A stretch of DNA of 64,000 nt from Acidobacteriota bacterium (GTDB lineage: Bacteria > Acidobacteriota > Terriglobia > Terriglobales > Acidobacteriaceae). Shown piece after piece: positions 22,096 through 46,132 of the stretch. The translations under genes were made by a program, and so were the position numbers. The stretch's first letter is position 1, and each line of letters begins with the position of its first letter. Location: positions 1 through 64,000 of the forward strand of contig JABCZH010000018.1 in NCBI GenBank assembly GCA_013289795.1, written 5' to 3'. Below the pieces are notes generated by a model. It was not told the origin of the DNA. It was given only the letters and a program-made list of their open reading frames with translations, and ran no database searches.

Positions 22096-22111
22096 TCTTG
22101 ACGTTCCGTCC

Positions 22112-23104: not shown

Positions 23105-23110
23105 GATTCC

Positions 23111-23704: not shown

Positions 23705-23710
23705 GGCCCT

Positions 23711-25462: not shown

Positions 25463-25616
25463 GTTACCGATTCTCACAACCGGCTCGACTGAAACTCACC
25501 TGTCATGTTCGCGGCCAGAGCGTTTCACATTCGACTTCGGGTCTGATCGACCCGGCATCGGTCGTGTGTCCGATGCATCTTTTCGATTTTGGGGGATTAA
25601 CCTACAAAGGCAGTGT

Positions 25617-28727: not shown

Positions 28728-30431
28728 TCATCTGAAGCTCACCACATTCTTCGGTTGGCTTGAGCTGCCCATCGAATCAGCCGACTGAAAGGTTTCAGCA
28801 CTTGAGGGGGCAGAGTTACGGTCTTGACCTCGTTCTGCTGCCCGGCTTGTCTTTAACTCGATCGCAAACAGCTCTCGAATCTTCCGGCGGTCGATTTTCC
28901 CGTTCCCATTGTTCGGGAGTTGCGGCAGCACCATCCAGTGCGATGGCACCATGTAAGGCGGCAATACCTTGCTGAGCTGGCTGCGAATGCCAGGCGGTGT
29001 GACGCCTTGGTCGCGCGCCACATATGCGCAGCAAATCAAACTTGTCTCAAAGCCGTCGGTGGGAAGCGCCACCACGGCACATTCCTTCAATTCCGGCATG
29101 TCATGCAAAGCGGTTTCGATTTCGCCCAGCTCAATGCGATAGCCGCGGCTCTTGATCTGGGTGTCGAGCCGGCCCACGAAGTAAATCAAACCATCCTGCC
29201 CGATGCGCGCCAGATCTCCGGTCCGGTAAATTCGCTCACCTTCACCATAGGAAAAAAACGATGCTGCGGTGGCAGTGGGATTGCGCCAATACCCCGGGCT
29301 CAGGCCCGCCCCACGGATGTACAGATCGCCTACTTCGCCCACCGGGGTCGGCCGCTGATCGTTGTCCAGCACCAGCAGTTCCTCACCCTCACAAGCAGTT
29401 CCAATCGGAATCGCTTGCGCTCCATCGGCGGGGCACGACTTAACCGTGTAATAGCTGCTGGCGATGGTGGTTTCCGTAGGCCCGTAAAGATTGGTGAACG
29501 TGACGTGCGGCAGCCGCTTCATCCAGTACATGAGAGCAGGCGTTGGGAACACCTCTCCACACCAAAGCAAACGTCGCAGCGCTGGGAAATCATTCATCTT
29601 TACTACGTCAAACTTTGCCATGTAGTTCAGTACGGACGGAACCGAGAACCACTGCGTCAGTTCGGAAGCACGAATAAACTCCGCCAGCTTATTGGGCAAC
29701 AGCGCCACCTTCGGGGGCACCAAGTGGAGCTGCGCTCCAGCAGCAAACGCGCCGAAGATATCAAATACGGATAGATCAAAATGCAAGGGTGGATGGCATG
29801 AAACTCGATCGGAGCCGGTGATTCCAAAATAGCGGGCCGCCCACTCCACAAAATGAATGACGTTGGCGTGGGTAATGACCACTCCTTTGGGCTCGCCCGT
29901 CGATCCGGAGGTGAACAAAATATGCGCCGGGTCGGCGGCGCATTGACTCGATTCCAGCGGTTCGGCGGAATAGCTGTTGCGGTCCGCCCAGTGAAACTTG
30001 GCGCGGAAGTTACGATGTTCGGCGGGAGACGTTTCCATCCACCCGACGCCTACCGAGTCGTTGAACTCTCCTTGCGCGAACAATTCTTCCAGCAGGCCAG
30101 AAGAGGATTCCACGCCTAGGATGTAGCGTGGCTCGCTGGAGCGAATAATTTTCGAGATTCGTGGAGCCGGACTCGAGGTATCGATCGGTACGTGAATACA
30201 ATCAGCTTTTAGAATCCCTGCAATGGAGATGATGGCAGCGGGAGATTTCGGGATCGCAAAGCACACGCGATCTCCCCGGCGGCATCCTGCCGCCTGCAAT
30301 AGCCGCGCCAGCCGGTTTGCGGATTCCTCCAACTGGCCGTACGTCAGAGACTGGTCCTGCATGATCACGGCTACAGCTTCCGGACGCTGTTGCGCCGCGC
30401 GGGAAATCCAGTTCTGCAAAAGCTGGGTCAC
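28728..30431 (-). CDS. Stand-alone NRPS adenylation protein (no carrier domain)
   Basis: A 567-residue cytoplasmic amino-acid-activating enzyme: it adenylates an amino acid with ATP. A3 is FTSGSTGEPKGV, A5 is NLYGPTETT, A7 is YRTGDLARI, A8 is GRLDTQIKSRGYRIELGEIE and A10 is NGNGKIDRRKIRE. The chain ends in a ~60-residue Ser/Gln-rich tail without an LGGHSL carrier motif, so the amino acid must go to a carrier elsewhere. Pocket residues read by alignment to GrsA are about D-L-F-F-L-C-L-I-A-K, for which I know no assigned substrate. The GTG start overlaps the stop of the luciferase-like gene (GTGA), so they are translationally coupled. Confidence 0.88.
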   Translation of the reverse strand: MTQLLQNWISRAAQQRPEAVAVIMQDQSLTYGQLEESANRLARLLQAAGCRRGDRVCFAIPKSPAAIISIAGILKADCIHVPIDTSSPAPRISKIIRSSEPRYILGVESSSGLLEELFAQGEFNDSVGVGWMETSPAEHRNFRAKFHWADRNSYSAEPLESSQCAADPAHILFTSGSTGEPKGVVITHANVIHFVEWAARYFGITGSDRVSCHPPLHFDLSVFDIFGAFAAGAQLHLVPPKVALLPNKLAEFIRASELTQWFSVPSVLNYMAKFDVVKMNDFPALRRLLWCGEVFPTPALMYWMKRLPHVTFTNLYGPTETTIASSYYTVKSCPADGAQAIPIGTACEGEELLVLDNDQRPTPVGEVGDLYIRGAGLSPGYWRNPTATAASFFSYGEGERIYRTGDLARIGQDGLIYFVGRLDTQIKSRGYRIELGEIETALHDMPELKECAVVALPTDGFETSLICCAYVARDQGVTPPGIRSQLSKVLPPYMVPSHWMVLPQLPNNGNGKIDRRKIRELFAIELKTSRAAERGQDRNSAPSSAETFQSADSMGSSSQPKNVVSFR

Positions 30432-31456
30432 TTGGTCACCAACTGCCGCGCGCTCGAAAACACGGTGGAGATATGTTCCAGTTCATCCTGGGCCGCCGGA
30501 ATATCGAGAATAAACGTCAAGTGGCCGAGTTCAAGATACTTCGCCAGTTGCGATGCAACTCGGTCATAACTTCCGACCAGATAGGGACAAAAAGTCTTGT
30601 AGTTCTCGAAAGGCCACAGCCAATAGGGACTGCCGTTCCCGTTGGGCGCCGAGGCCATTTGTGACAACTGTTTGTGCCAGGCTGAATCGGATGTCTTCAT
30701 GGCCAGCTGATGAGTGATTTGACCTTTGCGGTCGCCTGGGAATCGCTCATTGGCAATGCTCCAGGCTTCTTCTTCCGACTTCCGCGCGATAATGCCAACA
30801 CGCACGCCGGTTTTGAGGGCTGCGTCGTGGCAATCCGGCTCCTGCTCGGCCGGCTGTGGATACTTCACAGCCGTCGCACCGAGTGCCTGCGCCGCCGCCA
30901 AACCTGCCGGCGATGAGCCCGACACAAAAATTTCCGGCGCCAGTTCTGGGGCAAGCGGAGGAGTCATCCGCAGCTTGTCGACCACGTAGAATTCGCCGCG
31001 ATAGTTCACCGGCGTTGGGCCCCTCAGCAATTCCTGAATGATGGTCGTGTACTCCACCAGCCTGGCGTAACGCTTATCATGCGGGGTGGTGTCATTCAAC
31101 GCCGCCAGATCATTGGTAAACCCGCCCGCCACCATGTTCAGGTATATCTTTCGACCGTAGAGATGCCCCAGAGAACTCACCATCTTGGCTACCGCGTAGG
31201 GATGCATGTATGCCGGCTGTATTGCGACCAGCGGCGATAGTCTCGCCGTGTTCTGGATGATGATTTGCGCGACCAGCCAGGGATCGACCAGGGAATTGTC
31301 GGTGTACACCAGAATGCCCTCGCACCCTGCCGCTTCGCTCCAACGCGCCACCTCGACGACCCTGGAAACATAGTCCGCCGGTTCCACGGCGCTCGATTGC
31401 GGAGAAGTGGAAAACAAGCGCAGTTTTTGGCCTGCTGAGGACATTCTTACAGTCAT
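30428..31456 (-). CDS. Luciferase-like flavin-dependent monooxygenase
   Basis: A 342-residue TIM-barrel oxygenase of the LLM class, resembling alkanesulfonate monooxygenase SsuD: VVEVARWSEAAGCEGILVYTD, the strand LSPLVAIQPAYMHPYAVAKM, KIYLNMVAGG, DTTPHDKRYARLVEYTTIIQ, and EIFVSGSSPAGLAAAQALG. It would use reduced FMN and oxygen. In NRPS clusters LLM enzymes often hydroxylate an amino acid or carrier-bound intermediate. ATG 31456 is preferred over a TTG at 31483; no good ribosome binding site is seen for either. Its stop overlaps the adenylation gene start, which suggests that the two act on the same building block. Confidence 0.85.
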   Translation of the reverse strand: MTVRMSSAGQKLRLFSTSPQSSAVEPADYVSRVVEVARWSEAAGCEGILVYTDNSLVDPWLVAQIIIQNTARLSPLVAIQPAYMHPYAVAKMVSSLGHLYGRKIYLNMVAGGFTNDLAALNDTTPHDKRYARLVEYTTIIQELLRGPTPVNYRGEFYVVDKLRMTPPLAPELAPEIFVSGSSPAGLAAAQALGATAVKYPQPAEQEPDCHDAALKTGVRVGIIARKSEEEAWSIANERFPGDRKGQITHQLAMKTSDSAWHKQLSQMASAPNGNGSPYWLWPFENYKTFCPYLVGSYDRVASQLAKYLELGHLTFILDIPAAQDELEHISTVFSSARQLVTK

Positions 31457-31504
31457 GGAATCAGAGGATCGGGATGATGGCAAGAACGTGTGAGGAGCGT
31501 CGTT

Positions 31505-32677
31505 TTAACCATCCTTTTTGAGAATGTCATCCAAGTCAATACCCATCTCCTTGAGCAACTGTTCATTCCCACGAGTGGCCTTGCGTATCAGTTCTCGCTT
31601 TTCCGGGCCCGCCTTTTCCAGCAGCCGGCGAATCCGCTTGGCTGCGATATAGGTTCGGTATCGCCTCCAAACTGCTGTGGGCACAAAGGAGAAAATAACT
31701 GGAGCAAAGTGGTGAGTGAACTGCAGGAAGCTATAGGTGACCCGGTCCGACGCCCTCTCCCAAAGAGATGGGATTGCAGGGTCGGTTTCGAGCGACGTCG
31801 GGTAGGCCGGCCAGGTTCCGTGATAGCGCTTTCGCCACATCTTGACGTAGCGCTCGATTTTGTCCCGCAGTTCCGGGGGAAGCCCCTCGGACCCATTTCT
31901 GGTTTCAACGATTTTCTCACCCTTCACCAGCGAATGATGGCGGAAATCTGAGATCGCGTCGCGATCCGCACCAACCAGGTTACTCATCCGGCTGTCGTAG
32001 GGGATCTCAAGGAATTCGCAAATCGCCTTCATATGGCTCTCGGGATCCCGCACTAGATCTTCGTAATTCAGCTGGTGCACCCGTGCCCCTTGCTTCACCA
32101 GCGAATCATATTCGGTCTTCAAGTCCTGACAGCCCACGATGGCACGAAGCGTCATTCCGCTACGAGCGAAGAAAGGAGATGTTTCCGCCGCCGCCAGGAT
32201 ACTGCGACAAATGTGTCTGACATCCCGCCAAATAATGATGAACCGCGCATCGGGAAAGGTTCGTCTAAGGCGGGTCACCTCGTCATGATAGGTGGGTGAC
32301 TTGCATCCCCAGATGATCGCCCCTTTCTTCTGACGGGCATACTCTGTATACACCGCCTTCACAGCCGTCTTGAGATCCCTGATACCGTCCGGAATCACGC
32401 TGGTATCGAACTTGTGACGCTCCAGGGCCGTATTCCAGAATTCCCATCGTCTCAGCCAGCGCGTGGTGTCGCGCGGAACCCAGAAAAGGGCCTGCAGATG
32501 TGCCAGGTCACCTTCATACATCAATGCGATCTGCGGGTGCTGGTTCAGAAGGGCATAGAGCAGCGAAGTCCCCGAGCGAAACATCCCCACAACGAACACA
32601 GGCTCCGGACGGGGCTGGTAAGTGTGGCCCGCCGCCTCTGCGGCACTCAGTGTAGGGTGGGTTGTCAGCTCCTGCAT
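31505..32677 (-). CDS. Sulfotransferase family protein 1
   Basis: A 390-residue protein. The PAPS 5'-phosphosulfate loop is FVVGMFRSGTSLLY at about residues 28-41, and the 3'-phosphate-binding region is FIIIWRDVRHICRSILAA near 165-182. A later helix LNYEDLVRDPESHMKAICEFL matches the family. The C-terminal ~100 residues are basic with a hydrophobic stretch (FLQFTHHFAPVIFSFVP) that may dip into the membrane. It should sulfate a sugar or a hydroxyl of the cluster product. It lies between the acyltransferase and the luciferase-like gene, about 14 kb from the second sulfotransferase. Confidence 0.85.
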   Translation of the reverse strand: MQELTTHPTLSAAEAAGHTYQPRPEPVFVVGMFRSGTSLLYALLNQHPQIALMYEGDLAHLQALFWVPRDTTRWLRRWEFWNTALERHKFDTSVIPDGIRDLKTAVKAVYTEYARQKKGAIIWGCKSPTYHDEVTRLRRTFPDARFIIIWRDVRHICRSILAAAETSPFFARSGMTLRAIVGCQDLKTEYDSLVKQGARVHQLNYEDLVRDPESHMKAICEFLEIPYDSRMSNLVGADRDAISDFRHHSLVKGEKIVETRNGSEGLPPELRDKIERYVKMWRKRYHGTWPAYPTSLETDPAIPSLWERASDRVTYSFLQFTHHFAPVIFSFVPTAVWRRYRTYIAAKRIRRLLEKAGPEKRELIRKATRGNEQLLKEMGIDLDDILKKDG

Positions 32678-32707: not shown

Positions 32708-33880
32708 CTAGAGGCTGCTGTCTCCGTCATAGCAGGTTGGATCCCAAGCGCTGGCTTCGCGCAGGCTGGCCGACAAGGACGACTCATTGGTGCGATAAAA
32801 ATAACGCCACGAACTCAATTCACGATAGTGAGGATTCATACCGTCTATGATTCGCTGCTTGTCGGACGAGAAGCCGACAACTTCCATCATGTGGATGCCT
32901 TCGCGCTGGCACCTTTCCAATGCAAACACCAGCAAAGGTTTCAACTCGTCCTGTGATTCATCCACACTTTGGAAATCCACCAGCCGCATTCGCTTGAGCG
33001 CGAAGCTTGGATTATCCTGGCGACAAAGAATCCCGTAGGCGGTGAGTCTGGAACCCCGGTTGACGGTCAGCAGCCAAGCCTCGCCTTTTTGCAAAGCATA
33101 TTTGAAATGCCATTTGAGAGCGTCTCGTGAGCGGTCAGCAAGCAAACGGCCAGAACCGCGCTTTCGCGATTGTTTCCAGAAGTCGTCGAATCTCTCGTCA
33201 AACTGCGTACAAAACTTGACCTGGGCACGGCCGGGTTTGGTCCGCACACTCTTATTTGCCAACTGGTCCCGGACGAAGAGTCCTGCGGCCAAAGGATAGC
33301 TCCACACTCGCGGCCCGGAAAATTCCTTTCTACTCAGCAGGCTCGCGCTAAATCCCGGATAGTTCGTAATCCAGAACGAGGAACGGTCCCAGGTACCAGT
33401 CGGCACTCGCAGAGCATGAAACAATTCATGCAGGCGGGAAACCTTCTCGTTCACCGAGGTGTTTATAAAAAGATCCACCTCCTTCTGCCCGAAGAAGCGG
33501 CTCAGCAGCGGGAACGAGTATGCGCGGTATCGCGTATCCACTACCAATCCCCGGCTGGTCGCGGTCACCAGAGGACGACCCCCAAACTCAAAAGCCAACG
33601 GGATATTGCCTATACTGCCGACAATCTCCCCGTCTTCGTTTTCGCAAACCCAACCAATCGGCCAGCGTCGGAAATCGTAGTACGCAGGATTGTGCACCCA
33701 CAGGTGTTTCCATTCCTCGTAGCTCTTGGGGTGCAGTCCGTACCGCGACTCCAATTCCGCGATCTGCGGATAGTCCTCAAAAACCGTCTCCCGGAAGCGA
33801 GGCGGAGCAGCCATGGAACGGCTTCTAGTTTTCAATGGGAGAGTCCCAAGTTCGATCGGTGATTCCGATGACAGCACCAT
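32708..33880 (-). CDS. GNAT-like acyltransferase in the NRPS run
   Basis: A 390-residue cytoplasmic protein, paralogue of the one at 2787-3914. The N-terminal GNAT-like half (FRETVFEDYPQIAELESRYG, then EIVGSIGNIPLAFEFGGRP) and the second half (LKWHFKYALQKGEAWLL, MRLVDFQSVDESQDE) are both kept. The ATG directly follows the stop of the NRPS gene (no gap), so the two are coupled. It may transfer a fatty acyl, acetyl or aminoacyl group onto the peptide or sugar, much as GNAT/FemX-type proteins do. The acceptor and donor are not known. Confidence 0.75.
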   Translation of the reverse strand: MVLSSESPIELGTLPLKTRSRSMAAPPRFRETVFEDYPQIAELESRYGLHPKSYEEWKHLWVHNPAYYDFRRWPIGWVCENEDGEIVGSIGNIPLAFEFGGRPLVTATSRGLVVDTRYRAYSFPLLSRFFGQKEVDLFINTSVNEKVSRLHELFHALRVPTGTWDRSSFWITNYPGFSASLLSRKEFSGPRVWSYPLAAGLFVRDQLANKSVRTKPGRAQVKFCTQFDERFDDFWKQSRKRGSGRLLADRSRDALKWHFKYALQKGEAWLLTVNRGSRLTAYGILCRQDNPSFALKRMRLVDFQSVDESQDELKPLLVFALERCQREGIHMMEVVGFSSDKQRIIDGMNPHYRELSSWRYFYRTNESSLSASLREASAWDPTCYDGDSSL

Positions 33881-36800
33881 TCAAGCCACCTGTTCAACAG
33901 CCCGGGCGTGGCTCTCTATGGCTTCCGACAGACAGCCCTGGAGTTCGCTGGCCAGGAGGTCCACATTTTCTTCGTAGAACATCGATTCATGGCCCCCAGA
34001 GATCTTGAACACCCGTGCTCCCCCAGCAATCAGGCCGTCCCAGCTGGCATGAAAATCCCAATACTGCCCGTGAGGCCAGTCGGTAGACTGAAAGAAAACA
34101 ACCTCGCCCGCGTAAGCCCCCGGCCTATAGACAAAGGAGGCTGGGTGGACGATGGTATCCAAGTCCTGCAAATGCCTCTGGTCGACGGACAAACCCATGG
34201 CGTGGCGCATCCGCCAATATCGGACGCTGGCCCTGCGCTGAATACCCGTCATGCGGTCGCTCATGTATTCCGTTAGCTTTTGCCGGCGAAAATTCCTCAG
34301 GTGATGCCCGGTCCGCCGCAGCAGCAATTCGGTGCGACTCTGCTGGGAAAAATTCTCGTAGTATGCCGGATTCTGGGCGTCGAACATCGCCAGCAGGGCA
34401 ATTTGTTGCCCTTGTTGCGTGAGTTGCCTCGCCATTTCGTAGGCGATCACTCCATTCACGCACAAACCGGCAAGAAAATATGGGCCCTCGGGTTGCACTT
34501 CCTGTAACTGGCGCACCAGGGCGGCCGAAATGTCCTCGAACTTGTAAGGCAGGGGAAGGATGCTGGCGTCTGCCGCCGGAAGATGCAGCCCCAGGATCGG
34601 TTGATTCGGCCCCAGGCGCTTGGCAAGCGGAAGTAAGAATGAACCTCCTCGCACCCAGTACAACGCAGGCCTTGAACCGTTTGCCTGGACCGGAACCACT
34701 GCCGGATGATAGCTCGCGATACCGTGGCCGTTCAGCATCTCCGCCAGTTGGCGGATGGTTGGCGCCTGGAAAACATTCGCCAGCGAGAGTCGTTTTTCAA
34801 ATTGCTGCTCGATGCGGAGCAAAAGCTTTGCCACCAGAAGTGAGTGGCCGCCCAGATCAAAAAAATTTTCCGTCATGCCGAAGCCTTGCTTCCCAAGGAC
34901 CCCGGACCAGATCTCCAGCAGCTTGGCTTCGATCTCGCCACGAGCCGGCAGGGACGATGCTTCCGACGCGGATTGCGAGGGCACGGACAAAGCGTTCCGG
35001 TCCACCTTCCCATTCGGCATCAAGGGCAACCTCTCAAGCACCACGAAGCTGGCAGGAATCATCGCCCCCGGCAGCCTGGTCCCGAGGAAGCGCTTCAGGC
35101 CGTCGGCATCGAACTGCGAGAAGGAGACGGGCACGACGAATGCGACCAAATTCGATTCATGCGCCTCGGTTTGACGCGCTAGCACCACCGCTTGCCGCAC
35201 GCCACTATACTCAGAGATAACCGCTTCGATCTCCTCCGGCTCAATTCGAAAGCCGCGGATCTTGACCTGATGATCCAGGCGCCCCAACAACTCGAGATTT
35301 CCGTCCGGCAAGTAGCGGACCAGGTCTCCGGTCTTATACATTCGCGTGCCCGCAGTCTCGCTGAAAATATCGGGGACAAATCTTTCCCGGGTTTCCTCCG
35401 GCCGTTTCAGGTAACCGCGCGCCACTCCGCCGCCCGCTATGTGAAGCTCACCCGGTACTCCAATGGGCATTGGATTCAGGTGAGGATCCAGAACATACAC
35501 TCGAGTGTTCGGTATGGGACGACCGATGGGAACCAGCTTCTCAGATTTCCCTGCCGCGCACTGGTAAACCGTGCTCCAGACAGTAGCCTCCGTGGGTCCG
35601 TACTCGTTGTACAAAACAGCACGTGGAAGCTTCTTGTAATGGCGCTCGACCAGATCGACCGGACACACTTCGCCCGCCACAATGGCCACGCGTAACGATG
35701 ACAGCTGCCCGGCCGTGGCTTGTTCCAAAAGCAAGCTATATAAGGAGGGAACGCAGAGCAAATGCGAGACCTGATGCTGCTCGGCAAAACTGGCAAGCTG
35801 CGTCAGATTCGATGGCACCGGGCCAGACGTCAATACCAGCGTACCCCCGTAGCACAGGGTCGAAAATATTCCTGCCAATGAGCTGTCGAACGCGAAGGAA
35901 GAGAGCAGCAGGAACCTTGATGGACTCGCACCGTAATAGATCGGGCGAGCGCAGGTTGAATGGATCAGGTTCCCATGCGTAATCTGCACCCCCTTGGGTT
36001 TTCCCGTGGAACCAGAGGTATAGACTACGAACGCTAAGTTATCCATTCGAAGCGAACAACGAACCGGCTCCGCGGTACCAGCGTAGATGTCCTCATCGTC
36101 AACGCACACGACTTCCGCGCCGTCTGTGGGGATTTGGCCTCGCAGACGCCTTTGGGTGAGCAGCACCTTCATGCCGGTTTCCTTTAGCGCGTGAGAGTGC
36201 CTTCCCGCCGGATAACTTGGATCCAACGGAACACAAACCCCACCCGCTTTCAGAACCGCAAGAATCGCCGCCGGCATTTCCCAGGAGGGCTCAAGATAAA
36301 GTCCGATCGGCCTCTCTACGCCGACGCCTCGAGCCTGCAGAAAAGCAGCCAATCTGTCACTTTTCGTCTGCAGGTCTCGATAGGTTAAGTGGCAATTTCC
36401 CTGGGCCACCGCTACCCTGTCCGGCGTGCGTTCTGCTTGTGCGCTGAATAGTTCATGAAGATAGCCAGCGGCCGGAAGCTCGGTTTCAGTATCGTTCCAC
36501 TCGACGCATAGTTGTTGCCGTTCAGCCTCCGTGAGCACCGGCAAACGGGAGATTCGCTCGTCCGGATTCGCGACGATGCCTCTTAAAAGAGTCGTCAGGT
36601 GGCCCGTCATTCGCACAATGGTTGCGGGCTCGAACAGGTCGCTACTGTACTTGAATCGCCCAACCAGCCCAGTGGCACGATCATCGAGTTCCAGACACAG
36701 GTCCAGTTTCGAAAGCCCGGTATCTACCTCCGATTGGGTCAATGCGACCGTCCATCCATCCTGACTCTCCGACATGGGTGGCTCCAGGGTCAGGAGGGCT

Positions 36801-37954
36801 TGAAACAGTGGATTGAAACTCAAGCTGCGGTCGGGATCAACCTCGTTGACCACCTGCGTAAAGGGCGCATCATCGTTCGACAGAGCGTCCAGCGTCACTT
36901 CTCTGGTCCGGCGCAATAACTCGCGAAAGGTTGGGTCCCCAGAGAGGTCGCTCCGCAACACGACGGGATTCAGAAAATATCCCAGCAAGCCTTCCAATTC
37001 GGACCGCTTCCGCCCTGAGCTTACGGTTCCGATGCTGACATCCGCGCAGGACGAATAACGGTACAGGAGCACTGCAAACGCCCCAATCAATCCCATAAAC
37101 AGAGTCGCGCCCTCACGCTGGCTCAACAATTTCAAAGCGTCGCGTAACTCTCGGGGGAAGCTTACAGGGTGGATGGCGCCGCGAAAGCTCTGGGCCGGCG
37201 GCCGGGGCCGGTCAGCGGGCAACTGCAAAAGCGAAGGACTTCCGCCTAACTGCTCTCTCCAATACGCCAGTTGCGAGGCCAGACGTCCACCTTGCGGAAG
37301 CCACCCTTGCTCCCATCGCGCAAAATCAGGGTATTGGGTCGGGAGATCAGGAAGATCCGAGGCTTTATTCTCGTTAAACGCCTTGTAGAGCCTTGCGAGT
37401 TCGGGAAGCAGTACCCGGTAAATCGAGTATCCATCAAAAATTATGTGATGCAGCGTCAGAAATAGCCGGTGTTCGGTATCGCTAAAGTGCACCAGCAAGG
37501 TTCGGAACAATGGACCGCGCGACAAATCGAAGGGGCGCAAAGCATCCTCGACTGCCAGCCTGCGCGCTTCCGATTCCCGCGCCGCGGCGGGTAAGCCCCT
37601 CAGATCCGCAATGCGAACGCGAACCGGCGTAGCGGGCTGCACAACTTGAACCGGTTCTTCGTCCACTGCTCGAAATATGGTTCTCCACGCCTGATGACGA
37701 CGAACAATCTCCGTCAGAACGCGCTCCAGAACCTGCACATCCAGGGTTCCATCCCGATGGAATGTAATGGGCTCGTTATAAATCGGAATTTCTGGAACCA
37801 GCTGAGCGTGCACCCAGATCTGCTGTTGCGCAAAAGACACCGGCGCATACGTCTTCCCCGGTTCCTGAGTTGTGCCTACAGAGGCGCGGGTGTCGAGCGG
37901 GCACGCGCCCCCATCTTTCAGACCCCTCGGATTCTGTGCGAGTTGCGTACTCAA
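33881..37954 (-). CDS. NRPS C-A-T-TE protein with Cys in the thioesterase motif
   Basis: A 1357-residue complete termination module. The condensation domain (about 35-460) has LHHIIFDGYS, the active HHxxxDG motif. The adenylation domain (about 480-985) has VYTSGSTGKPKG, NEYGPTEA and YKTGDLVRY; pocket residues read about D-S-A-L-I-A-E-V-W-K, no sure substrate. The carrier has LGGHSLL near residue 1037. The thioesterase (about 1105-1350) carries GLCVNG at 1163-1168, with Cys1165 in place of the usual Ser, and SGGHESMF with the catalytic His. The TTG start has AAGGA seven bases upstream and overlaps the P450 stop (TTGA). It joins two units and releases the product. Confidence 0.93.
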   Translation of the reverse strand: MSTQLAQNPRGLKDGGACPLDTRASVGTTQEPGKTYAPVSFAQQQIWVHAQLVPEIPIYNEPITFHRDGTLDVQVLERVLTEIVRRHQAWRTIFRAVDEEPVQVVQPATPVRVRIADLRGLPAAARESEARRLAVEDALRPFDLSRGPLFRTLLVHFSDTEHRLFLTLHHIIFDGYSIYRVLLPELARLYKAFNENKASDLPDLPTQYPDFARWEQGWLPQGGRLASQLAYWREQLGGSPSLLQLPADRPRPPAQSFRGAIHPVSFPRELRDALKLLSQREGATLFMGLIGAFAVLLYRYSSCADVSIGTVSSGRKRSELEGLLGYFLNPVVLRSDLSGDPTFRELLRRTREVTLDALSNDDAPFTQVVNEVDPDRSLSFNPLFQALLTLEPPMSESQDGWTVALTQSEVDTGLSKLDLCLELDDRATGLVGRFKYSSDLFEPATIVRMTGHLTTLLRGIVANPDERISRLPVLTEAERQQLCVEWNDTETELPAAGYLHELFSAQAERTPDRVAVAQGNCHLTYRDLQTKSDRLAAFLQARGVGVERPIGLYLEPSWEMPAAILAVLKAGGVCVPLDPSYPAGRHSHALKETGMKVLLTQRRLRGQIPTDGAEVVCVDDEDIYAGTAEPVRCSLRMDNLAFVVYTSGSTGKPKGVQITHGNLIHSTCARPIYYGASPSRFLLLSSFAFDSSLAGIFSTLCYGGTLVLTSGPVPSNLTQLASFAEQHQVSHLLCVPSLYSLLLEQATAGQLSSLRVAIVAGEVCPVDLVERHYKKLPRAVLYNEYGPTEATVWSTVYQCAAGKSEKLVPIGRPIPNTRVYVLDPHLNPMPIGVPGELHIAGGGVARGYLKRPEETRERFVPDIFSETAGTRMYKTGDLVRYLPDGNLELLGRLDHQVKIRGFRIEPEEIEAVISEYSGVRQAVVLARQTEAHESNLVAFVVPVSFSQFDADGLKRFLGTRLPGAMIPASFVVLERLPLMPNGKVDRNALSVPSQSASEASSLPARGEIEAKLLEIWSGVLGKQGFGMTENFFDLGGHSLLVAKLLLRIEQQFEKRLSLANVFQAPTIRQLAEMLNGHGIASYHPAVVPVQANGSRPALYWVRGGSFLLPLAKRLGPNQPILGLHLPAADASILPLPYKFEDISAALVRQLQEVQPEGPYFLAGLCVNGVIAYEMARQLTQQGQQIALLAMFDAQNPAYYENFSQQSRTELLLRRTGHHLRNFRRQKLTEYMSDRMTGIQRRASVRYWRMRHAMGLSVDQRHLQDLDTIVHPASFVYRPGAYAGEVVFFQSTDWPHGQYWDFHASWDGLIAGGARVFKISGGHESMFYEENVDLLASELQGCLSEAIESHARAVEQVA

Positions 37955-39246
37955 GCGCTCGTCCTTGCTGCCGGCTCGGATCCATCAGGCCAGCTGACCC
38001 ATAGTGCAGTCAGGCCTCTGAGACCCAGATTATTTCGCCAAGTGACAGACCCAGGTTCAAGCTTCAATTCTGGCAGGCGTTGCAGAAGTGCAGAAAAAGC
38101 GATCTGCGCTTCCATCCGTGCCAGCGGAGCTCCAAAACAGAAGTGTGCGCCAGCCCCGAAAGCCACATGCCGATTGTCTTTACGGGTGATATCGAGCCGG
38201 TCGGGATCAGGGAAGCGTTGCGGATCGCGGTTGGCAGCCCCCATCACGGCGATCACTGCATCCTTGCGCTTAATGCTTTTGCCTCCGAGTTCAACATCGG
38301 CGGGAGCGATGCGCGCAGTGTGCTGACTGGGACTCTCATAACGCAATAGTTCTTCAACGGCAGAAGGAATCAGTGAAAGATCCGACCTCAGTCGCTTCAG
38401 GACCTCGGGATTGCGCAACAAGGTGAGCAGTCCATTGCCAATCAGGTTGGTGGTGGTCTCCTGGCCGCCAACCATGGTGACAATGAGGTTGGCAATCACT
38501 TCTTCCTCGCTCAAACGATTGCCGTCCACTTCCGCCAACAGCAGATGGTGCACCAATCCTTCCCCTGGACGCTTACGAGCCTCGGCAACGGCTGCCCGGA
38601 AGTAGTCTGTCATCTCCCGCACGCTGCGCAGCACGCGCTCTGTGCGGTCGGGGTTGTGCTGAAAGTTACCCAGCATCTCGGCAAAATCGGCGGACCACGC
38701 CTTCAACTGAACGTGATCAGTGGTAGGCACGCCCAGCAACTCCGCAGTCACCGTGGCCGGCAGCGGCGCAGCAAAGTCCCGGACCACATCCATCCGCCCC
38801 GCCGGCAACATGGTGTCGATCAGCCGCTCGGCGATCCCCTGGATACGGGCACGCAGCATCTCGACCCTGCGCGGGGTAAAAGCTTGTGAACACAGTCCGC
38901 GAAGCCGGGTATGCGCAGGAGGGTCCATAAAAAGCATCTGCCTTACCATTACTTCAGCGATTGGACCCAACTGGGAAAGACCCATCTCTCCCAATTGCTG
39001 CGGCGTGAAAGTACGATTGGCGGAAAAGTCCTGAAGCACGCGTACCACTTCTTCGTAACGGGTTACCACCCAGGCATGCAGGAAAGGGTCCCAGTGAACC
39101 GGGTCTTCGTTGCGTAGGCGGTGATATAGAGGATAAGGATCGGCCAGGACCTCCGGATCCAACAATTGATACAAGCTCAAGACAGGCGGACTGTGGGATG
39201 GAGGAGCATCCCCGGATGTCGAGCTAGTGGCTGGCTGGGTCGCCAT
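37951..39246 (-). CDS. Cytochrome P450
   Basis: A 431-residue soluble bacterial P450. The haem loop is FGAGAHFCFGAPLAR with ligand Cys370. The I-helix oxygen-binding region is VTMVGGQETTTNLIG, where the usual AGxxT reads GGQET. ExxR is in AVEELLRYESP, followed by the RDPQRFPDPDRLDI segment. ATG 39246 is used; an in-frame TTG at 39255 would overlap the A-T gene stop. It sits between two NRPS genes with coupled ends, so it most likely hydroxylates an amino acid on the carrier or the finished peptide, as P450s in glycopeptide and lipopeptide clusters do. Confidence 0.93.
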   Translation of the reverse strand: MATQPATSSTSGDAPPSHSPPVLSLYQLLDPEVLADPYPLYHRLRNEDPVHWDPFLHAWVVTRYEEVVRVLQDFSANRTFTPQQLGEMGLSQLGPIAEVMVRQMLFMDPPAHTRLRGLCSQAFTPRRVEMLRARIQGIAERLIDTMLPAGRMDVVRDFAAPLPATVTAELLGVPTTDHVQLKAWSADFAEMLGNFQHNPDRTERVLRSVREMTDYFRAAVAEARKRPGEGLVHHLLLAEVDGNRLSEEEVIANLIVTMVGGQETTTNLIGNGLLTLLRNPEVLKRLRSDLSLIPSAVEELLRYESPSQHTARIAPADVELGGKSIKRKDAVIAVMGAANRDPQRFPDPDRLDITRKDNRHVAFGAGAHFCFGAPLARMEAQIAFSALLQRLPELKLEPGSVTWRNNLGLRGLTALWVSWPDGSEPAARTSA

Positions 39247-39251
39247 AGAAA

Positions 39252-41132
39252 TCAATCGGCAGCGCTGGTTTGGGTCTGGCGTAGCATGCGCTCGATCTCG
39301 GCGGAGAGTTGCGACGCGGTTGGCGAATCGAAGACGGTGCGCAAGGGCAGCTCAATGCCGAACGAATCGCGGGCTCGCGCAATCAATTGAGTGCCGAGCA
39401 GGGAGTGTCCTCCCAGGAAAAAGAAATTGTCGTGCACGCCCACCTTCTGGACCCCGAGCAATTGCGCCAGAATGGCCACTACACGCGCTTCCACTGGAGT
39501 GGACGGCCCGACCCGGACTTTGTCTTCGTCGGTATTTTCCGGGGTGGGCGCCGGCAGCATCACCCGGTCAATTTTCCCGTTCGGTCCTAGCGGCAGCTGG
39601 TCGATCCGCACGAACGCTGCGGGAATCATGTAGTCAGGTAAATACTTCTTGAGGTATGCCTGCAACGAATCATGGTCGAGCTTCACCCCGTGTGTCGGCA
39701 CCACATAAGCAATCAATCGCGTATCCCCGTTTTCGGCGCGGGCGACCACTACACTAGTCTCGACGCCATAGCATCGATCGAGCAGTGTTGCGATCTCTTC
39801 GGGCTCGATGCGATAGCCCCGGACTTTTATCTGCTCATCAATGCGTCCTACAAACGCGATCTGGCCGTCGGGCAAGTAGCGCGCCAAGTCCCCGGTCTTG
39901 TACATCCGGCCCCCGGCCGTTTGACTGAAGGGATTGGCGATAAACTTCTCCGCATTTAAGCCCGGGCGATTGATGTATCCACGGCCGACGCCATACCCGG
40001 CAATATGCAATTCGCCAATGGCACCGTTCGGAACCGGCTGCAGGTGCTCGTCGAGAATGTAAACTTGGAGACCGTCAATCGGCCTTCCGATCGGCGGAAC
40101 TCCGTCCGGGTGACCGCCCGCTGCTACCACACCCGAGGTGGCTACCACGGTGCACTCAGTCGGCCCGTAATTGTTAATCAGTTGAAACGGGAGTCGTGCC
40201 GAAGGGTAGTGGTGTAAGGCATCCCCGCCGGTAAGCAGAAGACGAAGCGCCGTCTCCTGCGGCCACTCCAACGCAATCAGAGCTTCAGCCAGGGGAGTAG
40301 GGACGAAACTGACGGTGATCCGTTCCGCCACCAGCCAGTCTCGCAATGGTTCGGGAGCCACGCGGACTGCTTCGTCAGGAAAATGCACGCTGCTTCCAGC
40401 CGCGAGATTAGGCCAAACCTCCCACACCGCCGCATCGAAGCCAACGCTGGCCACTTGGCTGGCGCGATCCGATTGCGAAATCGCAAACGCCCGCTGATGC
40501 CACTGAACCAGGTTCAGCAGGCTCTGGTGGGTGATTTGCACACCCTTCGGACGGCCCGTCGAGCCAGACGTATAAATGACATAGGCCAGATTACTTCCAG
40601 AAATATTTACTTGCGGTGCGGCCTCCGGATAATCCGCAATCTGCAGCGCTCGTCTCTCAATGTCCAGAGTCTTCCAGCGTCCGCCGCTGATCCGCTCGCC
40701 AACCTCCTGACGCGCGATCAAGACTGCTGCCTTGGCGTCATCCAACATGAATCGGAGACGCTCTGCCGGGTAGTCGGGGTCTAACGGAATATACGCCCCG
40801 CCCGCCTTCAGAATCGCCAGGGCGGCAACCACCATGAGCGGCGAACGACCCAGGCACAAGCCAACTATGATTTCGGGCCCGATGCCGAGCGAGCGTAAAT
40901 GATGGGCGAGCCGGTTGGAGCGAACTTCGAGTTCACAGTAGGTCAGAGTCTGTTCGTCTGACACCAGAGCCACTCCGTCCGGCATCAGTGCAGCCCTGGC
41001 CCTCACTAATTCGGGGATCAGCAGTTTGTCGCGCAGATCTCTGTTTCCGGATTGTTTAAGCTCAGAGGGTGACTTTGAATTCATGGTGGGGAAGGGCATG
41101 CTTTCTGTCGGGTTGGGGGCGGATGAGTTCAA
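39252..41132 (-). CDS. NRPS A-T didomain, predicted leucine
   Basis: A 626-residue protein. The TTG start at 41132 is chosen because GGAGGT lies six bases upstream; ATG 41100 or 41084 are alternatives without such a site. The adenylation domain has VIYTSGSTGRPKG, NNYGPTEC, YKTGDLARYLPDG and NGKIDR. Pocket residues read by alignment to GrsA are D-A-W-F-L-G-N-V-V-K, which is a published leucine code (Stachelhaus set). The carrier has LGGHSLLGTQ near residue 576. It loads an amino acid for the condensation domain of the next NRPS protein (33881-37954), with the P450 gene between them. Confidence 0.9.
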   Translation of the reverse strand: MNSSAPNPTESMPFPTMNSKSPSELKQSGNRDLRDKLLIPELVRARAALMPDGVALVSDEQTLTYCELEVRSNRLAHHLRSLGIGPEIIVGLCLGRSPLMVVAALAILKAGGAYIPLDPDYPAERLRFMLDDAKAAVLIARQEVGERISGGRWKTLDIERRALQIADYPEAAPQVNISGSNLAYVIYTSGSTGRPKGVQITHQSLLNLVQWHQRAFAISQSDRASQVASVGFDAAVWEVWPNLAAGSSVHFPDEAVRVAPEPLRDWLVAERITVSFVPTPLAEALIALEWPQETALRLLLTGGDALHHYPSARLPFQLINNYGPTECTVVATSGVVAAGGHPDGVPPIGRPIDGLQVYILDEHLQPVPNGAIGELHIAGYGVGRGYINRPGLNAEKFIANPFSQTAGGRMYKTGDLARYLPDGQIAFVGRIDEQIKVRGYRIEPEEIATLLDRCYGVETSVVVARAENGDTRLIAYVVPTHGVKLDHDSLQAYLKKYLPDYMIPAAFVRIDQLPLGPNGKIDRVMLPAPTPENTDEDKVRVGPSTPVEARVVAILAQLLGVQKVGVHDNFFFLGGHSLLGTQLIARARDSFGIELPLRTVFDSPTASQLSAEIERMLRQTQTSAAD

Positions 41133-41299
41133 ACCCATACCTCCAAAATCTAGCACGATGCCTACCAAAGCCCAGTTTCAACAAACTCGTGCGCAGAGTG
41201 TTTTCGGGGCCTCAGGCCAGAGGTGCGGGAGATGTGCGGCCTGCCCTGATCGCAACCGCTCGGCAGATTCCATCTTAGCCCGTCAAACCGTACATCCCT

Positions 41300-41392: not shown

Positions 41393-42208
41393 TCATTTAT
41401 TCCTAACAACCGGTTCCGCAATGGCTGCTGGTGCAGCCTTAGCGGAACCCCAGAGACGATACAGGTCCCCGTTCGTCACCGAAGCCAATCCACGCCGGGA
41501 AATTGATTCAAAGGCGGATTCCAGCTTGTTCCATATCCCCAACTCTTCCATCTCCCAGCTATGCAGAATCAGGTGTGCGACGCCGCCGTGCTTATCAACA
41601 TAGTCTAAAGCGTGAGTGAAATGTTCCTGCCAATCGGTGGCGCCATGGAAGTCGCGGAAAAAATTGCGTATGCCGGCGAAATTTCGTTCCAGCAATGCGT
41701 GACGCAATTGAATCAGTGTACTATGCGAAAAAGCCTGGGTGCTGACTCCCCACAAAAAGGGGTTTTCGGGAAAATCGCAGAGATTCATGAGCGTGGTACG
41801 CGCCCCAAGGAAACCAGCGTCCCGCACCAGCGAAGGCGTGGTGCGATTGAACTTACCCCGCGGGTAACAGAATGAAATCACACGTTCCCCTAGAATGTCT
41901 TCCAACCAGCTCTTGCCTTCTTTGATCTCCCGCGACGCCCGTGCGTCGGGCATATGGTTGAGAGGCAGATGACTCAATGTGTGACTGCCGACCTCGAACT
42001 GCTTCGCGACTTCGCGAATCTCGCTCGCTGCAATCACCGGTCGTTCCGGATTGCGTGCAGGTACATAGAAAGTTGCCTGCAACCCATATTTGTGAAGCAG
42101 GTCCGCCGTTCTCGCATCTCTTGCGGACCCGTCATCCACGCTGATGGCGACAAAGCGGTCAAGCGCAACGTCGTTTTGTTGTGACGAAGGAAAAAGCGCG
42201 CTGTCCAT
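41393..42208 (-). CDS. Polysaccharide deacetylase (NodB domain)
   Basis: A 271-residue carbohydrate esterase family 4-like protein without a signal peptide, so it is cytoplasmic as read. VAISVDDGSARD gives the Asp pair, VGSHTLSHLPLN the metal-binding His-x3-His, and CYPRGKFN a later motif; HLILHSWEMEELG gives the last His. ATG 42208 is preferred over TTG 42217. It would remove N- or O-acetyl groups from a sugar in the repeat unit. The free amine so made could be an acceptor for the peptide or an acyl group (inference). Confidence 0.87.
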   Translation of the reverse strand: MDSALFPSSQQNDVALDRFVAISVDDGSARDARTADLLHKYGLQATFYVPARNPERPVIAASEIREVAKQFEVGSHTLSHLPLNHMPDARASREIKEGKSWLEDILGERVISFCYPRGKFNRTTPSLVRDAGFLGARTTLMNLCDFPENPFLWGVSTQAFSHSTLIQLRHALLERNFAGIRNFFRDFHGATDWQEHFTHALDYVDKHGGVAHLILHSWEMEELGIWNKLESAFESISRRGLASVTNGDLYRLWGSAKAAPAAIAEPVVRNK

Positions 42209-42410
42209 GTTGGGCAACCTGAGCCGTCCTATTCTTGGCTCCGCTGGAACAAAGAGAGGTCATCGGGGGACCAATCCTCGCGGTTTCCTGTGCCTCTACT
42301 CGACTACCGCGGGCCAGTCGGTAGGTCGGGCACAATTCTGGACTTTCCACATCCCTGCCCGCAGCTTGAATTCAGCGAAACCTGATTCCAAGAAACGGGG
42401 AAAAACAATC

Positions 42411-43643
42411 TTAGACCGAGGATACTTCATCGAGTTCAGCGACACAGTCTTTGCCAGCTTCTGCGGCGTTGTCCACTATGACCTTGTGGTAAATCTCCAT
42501 AAGTTGACGATAATTGGCCGCCGCAGTGTACTTGGCTTCATACTCGGCGCGGGCGTTGTCGCCCAGTTTCCGCATATGCTGCGGTTGCTCCCATGCCAAT
42601 TTCGCCGTGCGCGCCAAATCTTCGGCATCGCCCGCTCGAAAGAAGAGTCCGGTACGGTCTTCGCTAACCATCTCTTGCATGGCGCCCAGCTTTGACGCCA
42701 GCACCGGAACTCCGCAGGCAAACGCCTCGATGATCGTCAGAGGCATATTCTCATAAAGCTGGCTAGGGAACACCACAAAGCGCGCGCCTTTCATTTCTTC
42801 GATCACGCGTTCCCGCGGCAAGCGACCCGTGAAACTGATGTTGGAAAGCCCCTCGGATCTGACCTGCGATTCCATTTCCTCGCTAAAAGGACCGTCCCCG
42901 ACAATTCGCAGGCCGCAATGCTTCGGCAGTTGACGCCATGCCTTCAGCAAAGTCGGAGCTCCCTTTTGCTCCGAAACCCGTCCCACGAAGAGAGCATAAG
43001 CTGGGTCCCCGGTCCGTTTCCCTGGGTCGGGATCGACACAGTTGGGCTTGATCGAAATCTTCTCGGGCGCAAAGCCGGCATTCACAAACCGGCTTTTCGC
43101 GAATTCCGTGAGTACGATGTAGCGATCTACTGCGTGTGTCCAGGTCTTCTTGGCGCGATGGACAGACAGCATCAGCGCTACCGCCGCAGTCTGTGGGCGT
43201 GAATCCCGATAACAGCCATGCACAACCGACTTCCAAATGCTGCCCTGGGTGCAATCCTCGCATGGTTTTCCATCACGGATGAAGTTCGCTCCCGGGCAAA
43301 GCAGCCGGTAGTTGTGCAGGGTGTGCACAACCGGCACCCGTTCCCTCTGGCATGCCCACAGGATTGAAGGCGAGATGAGTGGGAACGTGTTGTGAACGTG
43401 CACCACGTCCGGCCGGTTCTGCCTTAGCAGCGTCGTGAACTCGCGATATGAGTCAGATGCCCACACCGTGCGCCCAATTATCGTCAGCCGGCGCGCCGTC
43501 GAATACTGGTCCATTTCGTGATTAAAGCGCTGGTATTCCAGGATCTCGTGCCCGGCCTCTCGTAGCAAGCGTCGTTCTTGCCAAAAAACGACGTCTTCCC
43601 CGCCCTGCTCGAGATACGTATTGTGAACCAGAGCAATTTTCAT
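42411..43643 (-). CDS. Glycosyltransferase family 4
   Basis: A 410-residue GT-B retaining transferase. The N-terminal domain starts MKIALVHNTYLEQGGEDVVF, with VVHVHNTFPLISPSIL. A Cys cluster follows (LLCPGANF, CEDCTQGSIW, GCYRD), as in a known GT4 subgroup. The C-terminal nucleotide-binding domain has ALFVGRVSEQKGAPTLLKAW and the E-x7-E motif in SQLYENMPLTIIEAFACGVP. ATG 43643 is preferred over a TTG at 43682. It should add one sugar of the repeat unit on the cytoplasmic face. Confidence 0.9.
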   Translation of the reverse strand: MKIALVHNTYLEQGGEDVVFWQERRLLREAGHEILEYQRFNHEMDQYSTARRLTIIGRTVWASDSYREFTTLLRQNRPDVVHVHNTFPLISPSILWACQRERVPVVHTLHNYRLLCPGANFIRDGKPCEDCTQGSIWKSVVHGCYRDSRPQTAAVALMLSVHRAKKTWTHAVDRYIVLTEFAKSRFVNAGFAPEKISIKPNCVDPDPGKRTGDPAYALFVGRVSEQKGAPTLLKAWRQLPKHCGLRIVGDGPFSEEMESQVRSEGLSNISFTGRLPRERVIEEMKGARFVVFPSQLYENMPLTIIEAFACGVPVLASKLGAMQEMVSEDRTGLFFRAGDAEDLARTAKLAWEQPQHMRKLGDNARAEYEAKYTAAANYRQLMEIYHKVIVDNAAEAGKDCVAELDEVSSV

Positions 43644-43678
43644 GATTTCAGACGGTCCGGATCTCGGTTCAAAATGCG

Positions 43679-45211
43679 TCAATTTCGCGATGGCACCAAG
43701 TCCAGCGCATCCAGGCCGGTGACGGCATAGAGCGGTTCCCTGGTGCGTGTCGCCTGTTGCAGCATAGTCTCAGTCACGCGGCGGGTAACTGCGGTCAACA
43801 TGACCAGGGCCAACCACAGCATGTACGGACTCATGCATCTTCCCCCAAAGTTCGCACCAAACAGACCTTGAAGAAACGTATGGACATACAAACCCAGGCA
43901 CCCGATGGTCAGAAGGTAAGCATGCCAGGCTTGCTTGCTGTCCGGCCGCAGGCTCCGCAGCATCTTGCAGGTTTTCAGCGAACTGAAGATGTTGCGCAGC
44001 ATCATGAAATGAATCATGAGCAGTAGCAGTTCGCCGAGAGCTCCATTGTTGTAAGCAACCTCCAGGAAGCCGTTGTGCACGTGAACTGCTCCGCTAGCCA
44101 ACCCGCTCGTGTTCTCCCATGAAAAAAACGTGGCCAGATAACCGCGCCCCAAAATTGGACTCTGCTTCATGGCAGTGATCGCTTTGCCCCAGATCACGGT
44201 TCGCCCCGTCAGCGTGGAACCGCCCTGATAGCTCTGCAGGTAACCTGCTAGGGGTGTGACCGAAATGATCAGCGCCGACAAAGCGCCTAAGCCCACCATC
44301 AGGCCGAGGCTGCGCACAACCTTCTTCTGCAGAAGCATGAAAATGCCTGCCGCAAGAAAACCCCCGATGACCCCAGCCTTTCCGAAGCCCAGCAGCATGA
44401 CGACCGCACCCAGGAGTCCAGTGACCACCCACTGTCGTTTCTTGGTCATGGCATACAGCATCATCGATATCACCATTAGCGCCGCTGCCAATGGGCTCAA
44501 GAGGTCGGGGTCAGCATTGAGTCTACCTTCAAAAAAGAATCCCTCTGGTTCCTTGGTGGCGTAGTAGACAGGCAGCGCCGTCAAAAACACGAAGGCTGCG
44601 GCGGTAACTTTCAGAAACAACTCAATGTCGGAGACGTCTTTGATCAGACTGGCGCAGAGTTGCAGCAGGCAAACGGCCAGAACCAGTTTAAAGCCCCACG
44701 CCATTGCGTACGCAGGGCCCGGCGCCCAGGCAATTGAAATCAGACAAGTCAAAACAAAAAACGTTAACCACTTGGACGTACCCTGGAACAGTTGACGCAG
44801 GTATCCGGGGCTGCGTAACGTCAGGATAAACAACACCGCTCCGCAGGCCAGCCACATCGCGGCTTCGGCATATGCATACAGCGAAAACTGCCCTTTGCCT
44901 ATGCCGAAGCTGGTATTGACGCGGCTAAAGAATACTTCGTCCACCAACAGCATCCACCAAATCGTCAGCGCCAGCCGGAATATCATCCTTCGCTCATCTA
45001 CCTTCTTCACGATCGCGGTGCCGACGACGACGCAAAGCAGAATAAAAAATAACCCGGCATCGGCCAGAATGGGAATGGTTCCATCATCGAAGGAGATCGC
45101 CGGCAACATGGGCATGAACCAAATCGCAAAGGCCGTGACCCCGACCATGCCCGCAATCGCGCCCCACGAAAACCACCCCCGCGCCGGACGATCAGCTGCT
45201 TTTCCGTACAT
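43679..45211 (-). CDS. O-antigen ligase/polymerase family membrane protein (Wzy-like)
   Basis: A 510-residue protein with about 11-12 membrane helices. The large periplasmic loop has the family pattern TGRTVIWGKAITAMKQSPILGRGY and HVHNGFLEVAYNNGALG, where the Arg and His are usual catalytic residues. ATG 45211 is chosen: GAGGGAG lies six bases upstream. In a Wzx/Wzy pathway this would polymerise the flipped repeat units in the periplasm, or ligate them to an acceptor. No second candidate for the polymerase is in the run, so polymerase is the more likely role. Confidence 0.88.
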   Translation of the reverse strand: MYGKAADRPARGWFSWGAIAGMVGVTAFAIWFMPMLPAISFDDGTIPILADAGLFFILLCVVVGTAIVKKVDERRMIFRLALTIWWMLLVDEVFFSRVNTSFGIGKGQFSLYAYAEAAMWLACGAVLFILTLRSPGYLRQLFQGTSKWLTFFVLTCLISIAWAPGPAYAMAWGFKLVLAVCLLQLCASLIKDVSDIELFLKVTAAAFVFLTALPVYYATKEPEGFFFEGRLNADPDLLSPLAAALMVISMMLYAMTKKRQWVVTGLLGAVVMLLGFGKAGVIGGFLAAGIFMLLQKKVVRSLGLMVGLGALSALIISVTPLAGYLQSYQGGSTLTGRTVIWGKAITAMKQSPILGRGYLATFFSWENTSGLASGAVHVHNGFLEVAYNNGALGELLLLMIHFMMLRNIFSSLKTCKMLRSLRPDSKQAWHAYLLTIGCLGLYVHTFLQGLFGANFGGRCMSPYMLWLALVMLTAVTRRVTETMLQQATRTREPLYAVTGLDALDLVPSRN

Positions 45212-45226
45212 TCTTGTCTCCCTCAC

Positions 45227-46132
45227 CTATCGTGACAAACTTTGAAGCACCCGCTCGCCCTCGGTTTCCTGGCTCGACAGCGGATACCCGAGTCTCTGCA
45301 AGATGCTGCCCGCGTGTTGCGTGATGAATTGCACCTGTTCGGGCGTCAGTTTTGCGCGCCATCCCTGCACCTCGCCCTTTCGCACAAACTGACCCTTCAC
45401 CGAAGCGCGCTGCGGCGCAACCCGTTCCTTCTCCTTCATTTTGGCCAGCGAGTTGTGCTCGATGGCGCGTTGAATCAAGGCCGGGTCACTATCGACTCCT
45501 AGGAACGTGGCAATCCGCGTAAATTGTTCTAGCGGATTCTTGCGCAGCTCTTCGTATTGAACTTTCAACAGGTTGGGAGTGGCTCCAATGGGAGAGTCCA
45601 ACCAGGAGGCAACGTGCTTTTGCCAGGGCCCGAAGGGGTTCACCTTCTTGCGCAAGAAATCGGAAATGAATGCGTCCAGGTCATCCTCAAAAAATTCCAG
45701 TGCGGTAGTGTAAGCAAATTCCGACAGGATCACGTCTCTGACATCCCGCACCAGGTAGATGGCCTTGTGATACTGCTTGCGATATTGCTCGTGCGTTGCC
45801 AGCAGGCGGCCGCCGCCCGGAAGCACAGCAGCGCCGGTTGCTTGATTGCCGACTCCGTGCAACATGCCGTTCACTTCATCGAATCCACCCTCGTGGCCGG
45901 TAAGGATTTCCAGCAGCACGAACCGCGACCATGTCGTCCCCGACCGCGGGTAGGACCCAAGAAAAACGTCGGCCGGGCGGAAGCCGTGATGTCGCAACCA
46001 AACCAGCGGTGCACGCAGCCCCGTTCTCGACAACTTCCGGCGTAGCTTGCGATAGGCATTCGTCGGCTTACTCCGCTGCTTCGAATAGAGGCCTCGTTTC
46101 GGCAGTTCAAAATCGTGAAACTTCTTTGCCAT
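45227..46132 (-). CDS. Sulfotransferase family protein 2
   Basis: A 301-residue protein of the Sulfotransfer_1 type. The PAPS loop is VFLGSYPRSGTTWSRF near residues 56-70, and the 3'-phosphate-binding segment is AIYLVRDVRDVILSEFAY near 123-140. The C-terminal KGEVQGWRAKLTPEQ matches the conserved R-K-G-x-x-G-x-W-K motif, here read RKGEVQGWR. A 5'-acceptor His lies in THEQYRKQYH. It should transfer sulfate to a sugar hydroxyl. Only distantly related to sulfotransferase 1, so two different positions may be sulfated. Confidence 0.88.
   Translation of the reverse strand: MAKKFHDFELPKRGLYSKQRSKPTNAYRKLRRKLSRTGLRAPLVWLRHHGFRPADVFLGSYPRSGTTWSRFVLLEILTGHEGGFDEVNGMLHGVGNQATGAAVLPGGGRLLATHEQYRKQYHKAIYLVRDVRDVILSEFAYTTALEFFEDDLDAFISDFLRKKVNPFGPWQKHVASWLDSPIGATPNLLKVQYEELRKNPLEQFTRIATFLGVDSDPALIQRAIEHNSLAKMKEKERVAPQRASVKGQFVRKGEVQGWRAKLTPEQVQFITQHAGSILQRLGYPLSSQETEGERVLQSLSR

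Follow-up and report, generated by a model that had tools for sequence, protein, structure and literature searches.

Several terminal thioesterase (TE) domains with a cysteine nucleophile have been described, and their products differ: ObiF makes a lactone and SulM a lactam, both by a Cys-TE (PMC6668435, PMC11298585), with the catalytic Asp at position II (PMC11298585). BulbE-TE (Cys961/Asp988/His1097), known here from its published description, carries out an intramolecular macrocyclisation of a ureidopeptide to bulbiferamide; the nitrogen that it acylates is a poor nucleophile, and exchanging its Cys for Ser leaves an enzyme that only hydrolyses (PMC11536411). Acyl-Cys is a thioester, for which aminolysis is favoured in comparison with an ester while hydrolysis is about equal, BulbE-TE being the example (PMC11536411). 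AB3403 of Acinetobacter baumannii (A1S_0115 orthologue, structure 4ZXH), a C-A-PCP-TE protein of the acinetin 505 operon, is the one solved NRPS TE that was reported with a Cys nucleophile and an Asp at position I (PMC11298585). The thioesterase described here belongs to this already known kind of TE; what is new, within the literature searched, is that NRPS genes and polysaccharide genes are joined in a conserved way.

The window, the whole stretch of DNA that was analysed (64,000 nucleotides of an Acidobacteriota bacterium from soil), encodes an NRPS protein, P0001, with the following features:

33881..37954, minus strand: C-A-T-TE NRPS P0001, 1357 amino acids, code DSALIAEVWK, with a Cys-type TE (open reading frame, Pfam, motifs)
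33917..34696, minus strand: TE domain of P0001, 260 residues modelled (alpha/beta-hydrolase model, Foldseek)
34460..34462, minus strand: predicted nucleophile codon TGC, Cys1165, in GLCVNG (sequence, 14-member alignment, elbow in the model)
34379..34381, minus strand: Asp1192, predicted acid of the triad, following beta6 at position I (every close member has D here, apart from L019 and L084 with E)
34079..34081, minus strand: Asp1292, the other candidate acid, following beta7 at position II (close relatives have D or E here)
33989..33991, minus strand: His1322, predicted triad His (invariant alignment column)

The Pfam order of P0001 is Condensation, AMP-binding, AMP-binding_C, PP-binding, Thioesterase, and HHIIFDG, TSGSTGKPKG, NGKVD and LGGHS, which are core motifs of its C, A or T domain, are all intact; the C-terminal PF00975 match (residues 1109-1225) scores 59.1 bits, compared to a cut-off of 26.4. 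An earlier note, made from the sequence alone, had named Cys1165 as a TGC-encoded nucleophile and had stated that the second TE of the run keeps a Ser. Both statements hold: the reverse strand reads TGC at 34462-34460, GLCVNG is the translation of 34468-34451, and the TE of the A-T-TE protein P0002 has GFSFGG with Ser727. The Cys is invariant in a 14-member alignment of the closest TE subfamily and is thus more than chance or a sequencing error. Asp1192 (FDAQ) lies 27 residues past the Cys, the same spacing as in the Cys/Asp/His triad of BulbE-TE (961/988), a second Asp (Asp1292, STDW) is found at position II and the triad His is in the motif GGHES.

The structure prediction and the alignment with known Cys-TEs that the earlier note had suggested point the same way. 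An AlphaFold2 model of the TE, built from 36 aligned homologues (mean pLDDT 88.7, pTM 0.87), has an alpha/beta-hydrolase fold with elbow, acid and His: Cys1165 is placed at the very turn from strand 73-78 into helix 80-94 of the domain, the predicted nucleophile elbow, Asp1192 after the next strand (99-105), Asp1292 after the following strand and His1322 after the last one. A catalytic Ser elsewhere in the domain could be dismissed, as the elbow residue is Cys and there is no alternative Ser at this place. AB3403 is the top Foldseek match by E-value and also comes first in a profile search of PDB sequences, its motif GGWCFGG being aligned to GLCVN[AG]; upon structural realignment its Z score (22.0) is tied with those of other NRPS, PKS and FAS thioesterases (Z of about 20-22 to the TEs of EntF, AB3403, Pks13 and NocB). 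Sequence and model together support Cys1165 as the predicted nucleophile, and a Cys at the elbow followed by an Asp about 27 residues on, after beta6, is the arrangement of the AB3403/BulbE-type TEs. AB3403 shares the domain order with P0001, but differs in its Gly-preferring A domain and its quorum-regulated lipopeptide operon (PMC5376624). With ObiF and SulM, the window TE shares the Cys in a terminal TE; however, it has an Asp at both positions, with position I kept within the clade, it has no C-terminal MbtH-like domain and it reads Leu-Cys-Val instead of the Gln-Cys-Asn of SulM. The position-I Asp and the missing SulM motif rule out a beta-lactone/lactam TE of the ObiF/SulM type.

A Cys nucleophile is not a rarity: a class-wide Pfam sample (read partly by eye) has it in about 3 of 15 type I TEs and a wider set, biased towards relatives, in 50 of 91 TE domains, and there are many Cys-type TEs in cyanobacteria and Sphingomonadales. 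Given the class-wide frequency, the Cys taken alone is ordinary. The tree as drawn has 11 changes between Ser and Cys, only one of which is forced by well-supported branches; a single origin of the Cys is compatible with these branches, and there may have been one or several. The single AB3403 sequence falls outside the clade of the window TE, with weak support. Another group of Cys-TEs is found in Planctomycetales (L100, L103 and L116), with near-identical TEs and the nucleophile motif GGMCAGG. Within the 91-TE set, position I is Asp in all 41 Ser-type TEs, while 14 of the 50 Cys-type TEs have Glu, His or Gln; it looks as if this acid were less needed when the nucleophile is Cys. Four Sphingomonadales loci (L097, L101, L113, L122), which carry the A-T(Leu)/P450/C-A-T-CysTE cassette with a Gly-like code, have His in place of the position-I Asp; all four have an adjoining PPTase-like gene and three of them a flippase-like gene opposite, both identified by reading.

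Around P0001, the window contains the following genes:

21265..25477, minus strand: WecG-type glycosyltransferase, epimerase, RmlC-like epimerase and carbamoyltransferase, P0022-P0019 (Pfam for P0019 and P0022; P0020 and P0021 by reading)
28728..30431, minus strand: stand-alone A protein P0008, code DLFFLCLIAK (Pfam, code)
30428..31483, minus strand: luciferase-like monooxygenase P0007 (PF00296)
31505..32677, minus strand: sulfotransferase P0006 (PF13469)
32708..33880, minus strand: GNAT-like protein P0005 (by reading; no Pfam or NCBIfam match)
37951..39255, minus strand: cytochrome P450, P0004 (PF00067; adjoining or fused in relatives)
39252..41168, minus strand: A-T protein P0003, code DAWFLGNVVK, presumably Leu-like (Pfam; code near-invariant, including Sphingomonadales)
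41393..42217, minus strand: polysaccharide deacetylase P0009 (PF01522)
42411..43682, minus strand: GT4-type glycosyltransferase P0010 (PF00534/PF13439)
43679..45226, minus strand: Wzy-type polymerase/ligase P0011 (PF04932, Wzy_C)
45227..46132, minus strand: sulfotransferase P0012 (PF00685)
46212..47696, minus strand: Wzx-like flippase P0013 (by reading and position; no Pfam match)
47714..50416, minus strand: A-T-TE protein P0002, code DIEDIGTICK, TE with Ser727 (Pfam, motif, code)
50416..51864, minus strand: polyprenyl glycosylphosphotransferase P0014 (PF02397)
52059..55349, minus strand: BY-kinase-like, Wzz-like and Wza-like export genes P0015-P0017 (GNVR domain in P0016; others by reading)

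Genes for an initiating glycosylphosphotransferase, a polymerase and chain-length control are thus co-located, by PF02397, PF04932 and GNVR matches, and by its predicted gene content the region represents a polysaccharide cluster of the Wzx/Wzy type with its own small NRPS, the Wzx being assigned by reading. No dedicated exporter besides Wzx was seen in the locus. Among the related loci, orthologues of the GNAT-like protein are restricted to G167 and G195, and none has an orthologue of the luciferase-like monooxygenase.

The earlier note had linked the Cys-TE to the deacetylase nearby. The link to polysaccharide genes is conserved: within the order, about 20 loci have NRPS genes embedded among polysaccharide genes. 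Polysaccharide genes are present at every related Cys-TE locus with enough flank, in rearranged gene order, and wherever the flank of an acidobacterial locus is long enough, the NRPS genes are surrounded by genes for Wza, Wzz, Wzx, Wzy, PGT and GT; the nearest named record among the related loci is Terriglobia bacterium SRVP_32 (L071). Of 298 genomes of the order, 28 have an orthologue of the window Wzx scoring above 300 bits, mostly beside NRPS genes. The P450 adjoins the NRPS proteins of the relatives or is fused to them. Six loci (L180-L185, in G233, G124, G035, G252, G014 and G092) have a full polysaccharide locus, the A-T(Leu) protein and a P450-C-A-T-TE fusion that ends in a Ser-TE. The Cys-TE is absent from each of these six sister loci; in G092, a different Cys-TE lies at a distance of about 200 kb. 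The counterpart of the fusion in the Cys-TE group lacks a full C domain, and a separate C-A-T-CysTE protein is present there. The P450-A-T-TE fusions of L055 (G117:C6:125574-130250) and L053-L054 (G194:C172:79245-84086) retain a C-domain remnant of about 270 residues, and these sequences look as if they were caught in the middle of losing that domain.

The A-domain codes are well conserved. The C-A-T-CysTE code is DSAL[IV]AEVWK in all orthologues, which we take to be His-like, and the A-T code DAWFLGNVVK, which we read as Leu-like, is near-invariant with one EAWFLGNVVK; the A-T-SerTE code (DIE[DNS][IV]GT[VI][IC]K, in G225 DAEDIGTVVK) is presumably of a basic type, with no residue assigned. The stand-alone A protein has DLFYLALVCK in most relatives, presumably a Pro code, and DLFFLCLIAK in the window and in G167. 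These assignments follow published codes and serve as leads; a review searched for the A-domain codes of the locus does not contain them.

For P0008, no carrier-protein partner was found within the window. At L040 (G195:C212:31459-34694), which is closely related to the window locus, an asparagine-synthase-like gene, a PCP-like ORF and a NAD-synthase-like gene lie beside a divergent A protein. In the Dlt system, an NRPS-type adenylation enzyme and a carrier give D-Ala to teichoic acids, which are cell-surface polymers. The likeness is an analogy in the way of working, as Dlt uses DltB/DltD and no TE; P0008 itself scores 319.9 bits against the DltA equivalog, under the cut-off of 476.

Relatives with the Pro-type code also carry a hexapeptide transferase, a free PCP and a prolyl-PCP dehydrogenase-like gene, which scores 430 bits against NF045652 and so stays under the cut-off of 650; G117 and G194 have a halogenase-like gene in addition. 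None of these genes is found in the window. A Pro-coded A domain, a free PCP and a prolyl-PCP dehydrogenase-like gene resemble the pyrrolyl-carboxyl pathways, such as RedM/RedW, PltF/PltE and the sugar acylation of clorobiocin, with the difference that the genes of the relatives sit inside a polysaccharide locus. At L056 (G117:C6:143160-146769) and L053 (G194:C172:60003-63905), a free PCP, a prolyl-PCP dehydrogenase-like gene and a CmlS-like flavin halogenase are found beside the polysaccharide locus, and decoration with a halogenated pyrrole is possible at these two loci, judging from the genes.

The deacetylase is of particular relevance to the further suggestion of the earlier note, a transfer of the peptide to an amino sugar made by this enzyme. 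A deacetylase of the locus type is present in 14 of 18 Cys-TE loci and in one of seven Ser-only loci, and it is absent from all six Ser-TE sister loci, which share the polysaccharide and NRPS genes. Fisher's exact test gives p = 0.007, or 0.06 when the off-locus gene of G035 is counted; the test treats loci as independent, and because the loci are related by descent these values overstate the evidence. Four Cys-TE loci (G281, G196, L081 of G305, and G240) lack the deacetylase; L075, which is the G281 locus, groups with L081-L083 in one subclade of the tree, and the absence in L075 and L081-L083 reads as one loss. G225 is the reverse exception, with a close deacetylase and a Ser-TE and no Cys-TE found there. 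The suggestion is therefore backed by the co-occurrence and weakened by these exceptions, and the association provides moderate support, at the level of gene content, for the amino-sugar idea.

With a deacetylase in the same locus and the thioester chemistry of a Cys nucleophile, the reading that explains most, which we hold tentatively, is that the Cys-TE passes a dipeptide to an amino sugar and so places a peptide on the polysaccharide. From the predicted domains and codes we infer the following order of events: P0003 would load the Leu-like residue, the P450 would probably hydroxylate this residue while it is carrier-bound, and the C domain of P0001 would join it to the His-like residue. 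Cys1165, with His1322 and Asp1192 (or Asp1292) activating it, would then take over the dipeptidyl chain from the carrier as an acyl thioester. The acceptor would be a nucleophile on a polysaccharide building block, most plausibly the amine of an amino sugar freed by the deacetylase, which would give a peptidyl amide; P0002 would separately supply a further residue. The full proposition, that this acidobacterial locus family builds a peptide-decorated exopolysaccharide and that its Cys-TE, as an intermolecular peptidyltransferase, links the peptide by an amide bond to a deacetylated amino sugar in the repeat unit, we regard as doubtful. Where the chemistry of a Cys-TE is known, it is a cyclisation and not a transfer from one molecule to another, and no precedent for an NRPS TE that acylates a polysaccharide was found in the literature searched. 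The premise of the earlier note that Cys-TEs favour aminolysis finds an example in BulbE-TE (PMC11536411); it does not follow from the Cys alone, given the lactone and lactam made by ObiF and SulM.

ObiF, SulM and BulbE all act intramolecularly (PMC6668435, PMC11298585, PMC11536411), and the Cys-TE could likewise cyclise a free small molecule, for example a diketopiperazine or a depsi-ring of hydroxy-Leu and His; the polysaccharide genes would then belong to a separate chemistry in the same locus, with the Wzx as exporter or unrelated. The cassette of A-T(Leu), P450 and C-A-T-CysTE (here with a Gly-like C-A-T code) is also found in Sphingomonadales with no polysaccharide locus evident close by; as no glycosylphosphotransferase is evident near it, the module can apparently work without such a locus. 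The fact that all acidobacterial NRPS loci with a long enough flank are embedded in polysaccharide genes speaks against a free metabolite, as does the fact that the only exporter seen is a Wzx, and we consider this explanation unlikely. A Cys-TE that merely hydrolyses is clearly less probable: the free hydroxylated dipeptide, or an amino acid released by the Ser-TE, would be attached by another acyltransferase (GNAT-like or hexapeptide) or stay unattached. The hexapeptide transferase conserved in the proline-bearing loci, the GNAT-like protein of the window and the resemblance of the C-less A-T-Ser-TE to amino-acid-release modules would fit, but re-attachment after hydrolysis wastes the activation, and the Cys is invariant although a Ser would hydrolyse equally well or better (BulbE Cys-to-Ser, PMC11536411). 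Transfer to a sugar hydroxyl as an ester, with the deacetylase serving another step, agrees with the one Cys-TE subclade that has no deacetylase and with the SGNH-type and sulfotransferase genes, which suggest usual O-substitution in these loci, and is very unlikely since the gain of a thioester over an ester is greatest in aminolysis (PMC11536411) and deacetylase and Cys-TE mostly co-occur.

No description of NRPS genes in polysaccharide loci was found in the literature searched, which is not proof of absence. The Ser-TE loci without deacetylase and the Cys-TE loci, mostly with one, form a natural pair that makes the role of the Cys nucleophile directly testable. Should the polysaccharide indeed carry the peptide, these loci would be misread when viewed as secondary-metabolite clusters alone: the purpose of the non-ribosomal peptide chemistry would be a structural polymer of the cell surface and not a free metabolite, and the TE would be a coupling enzyme.
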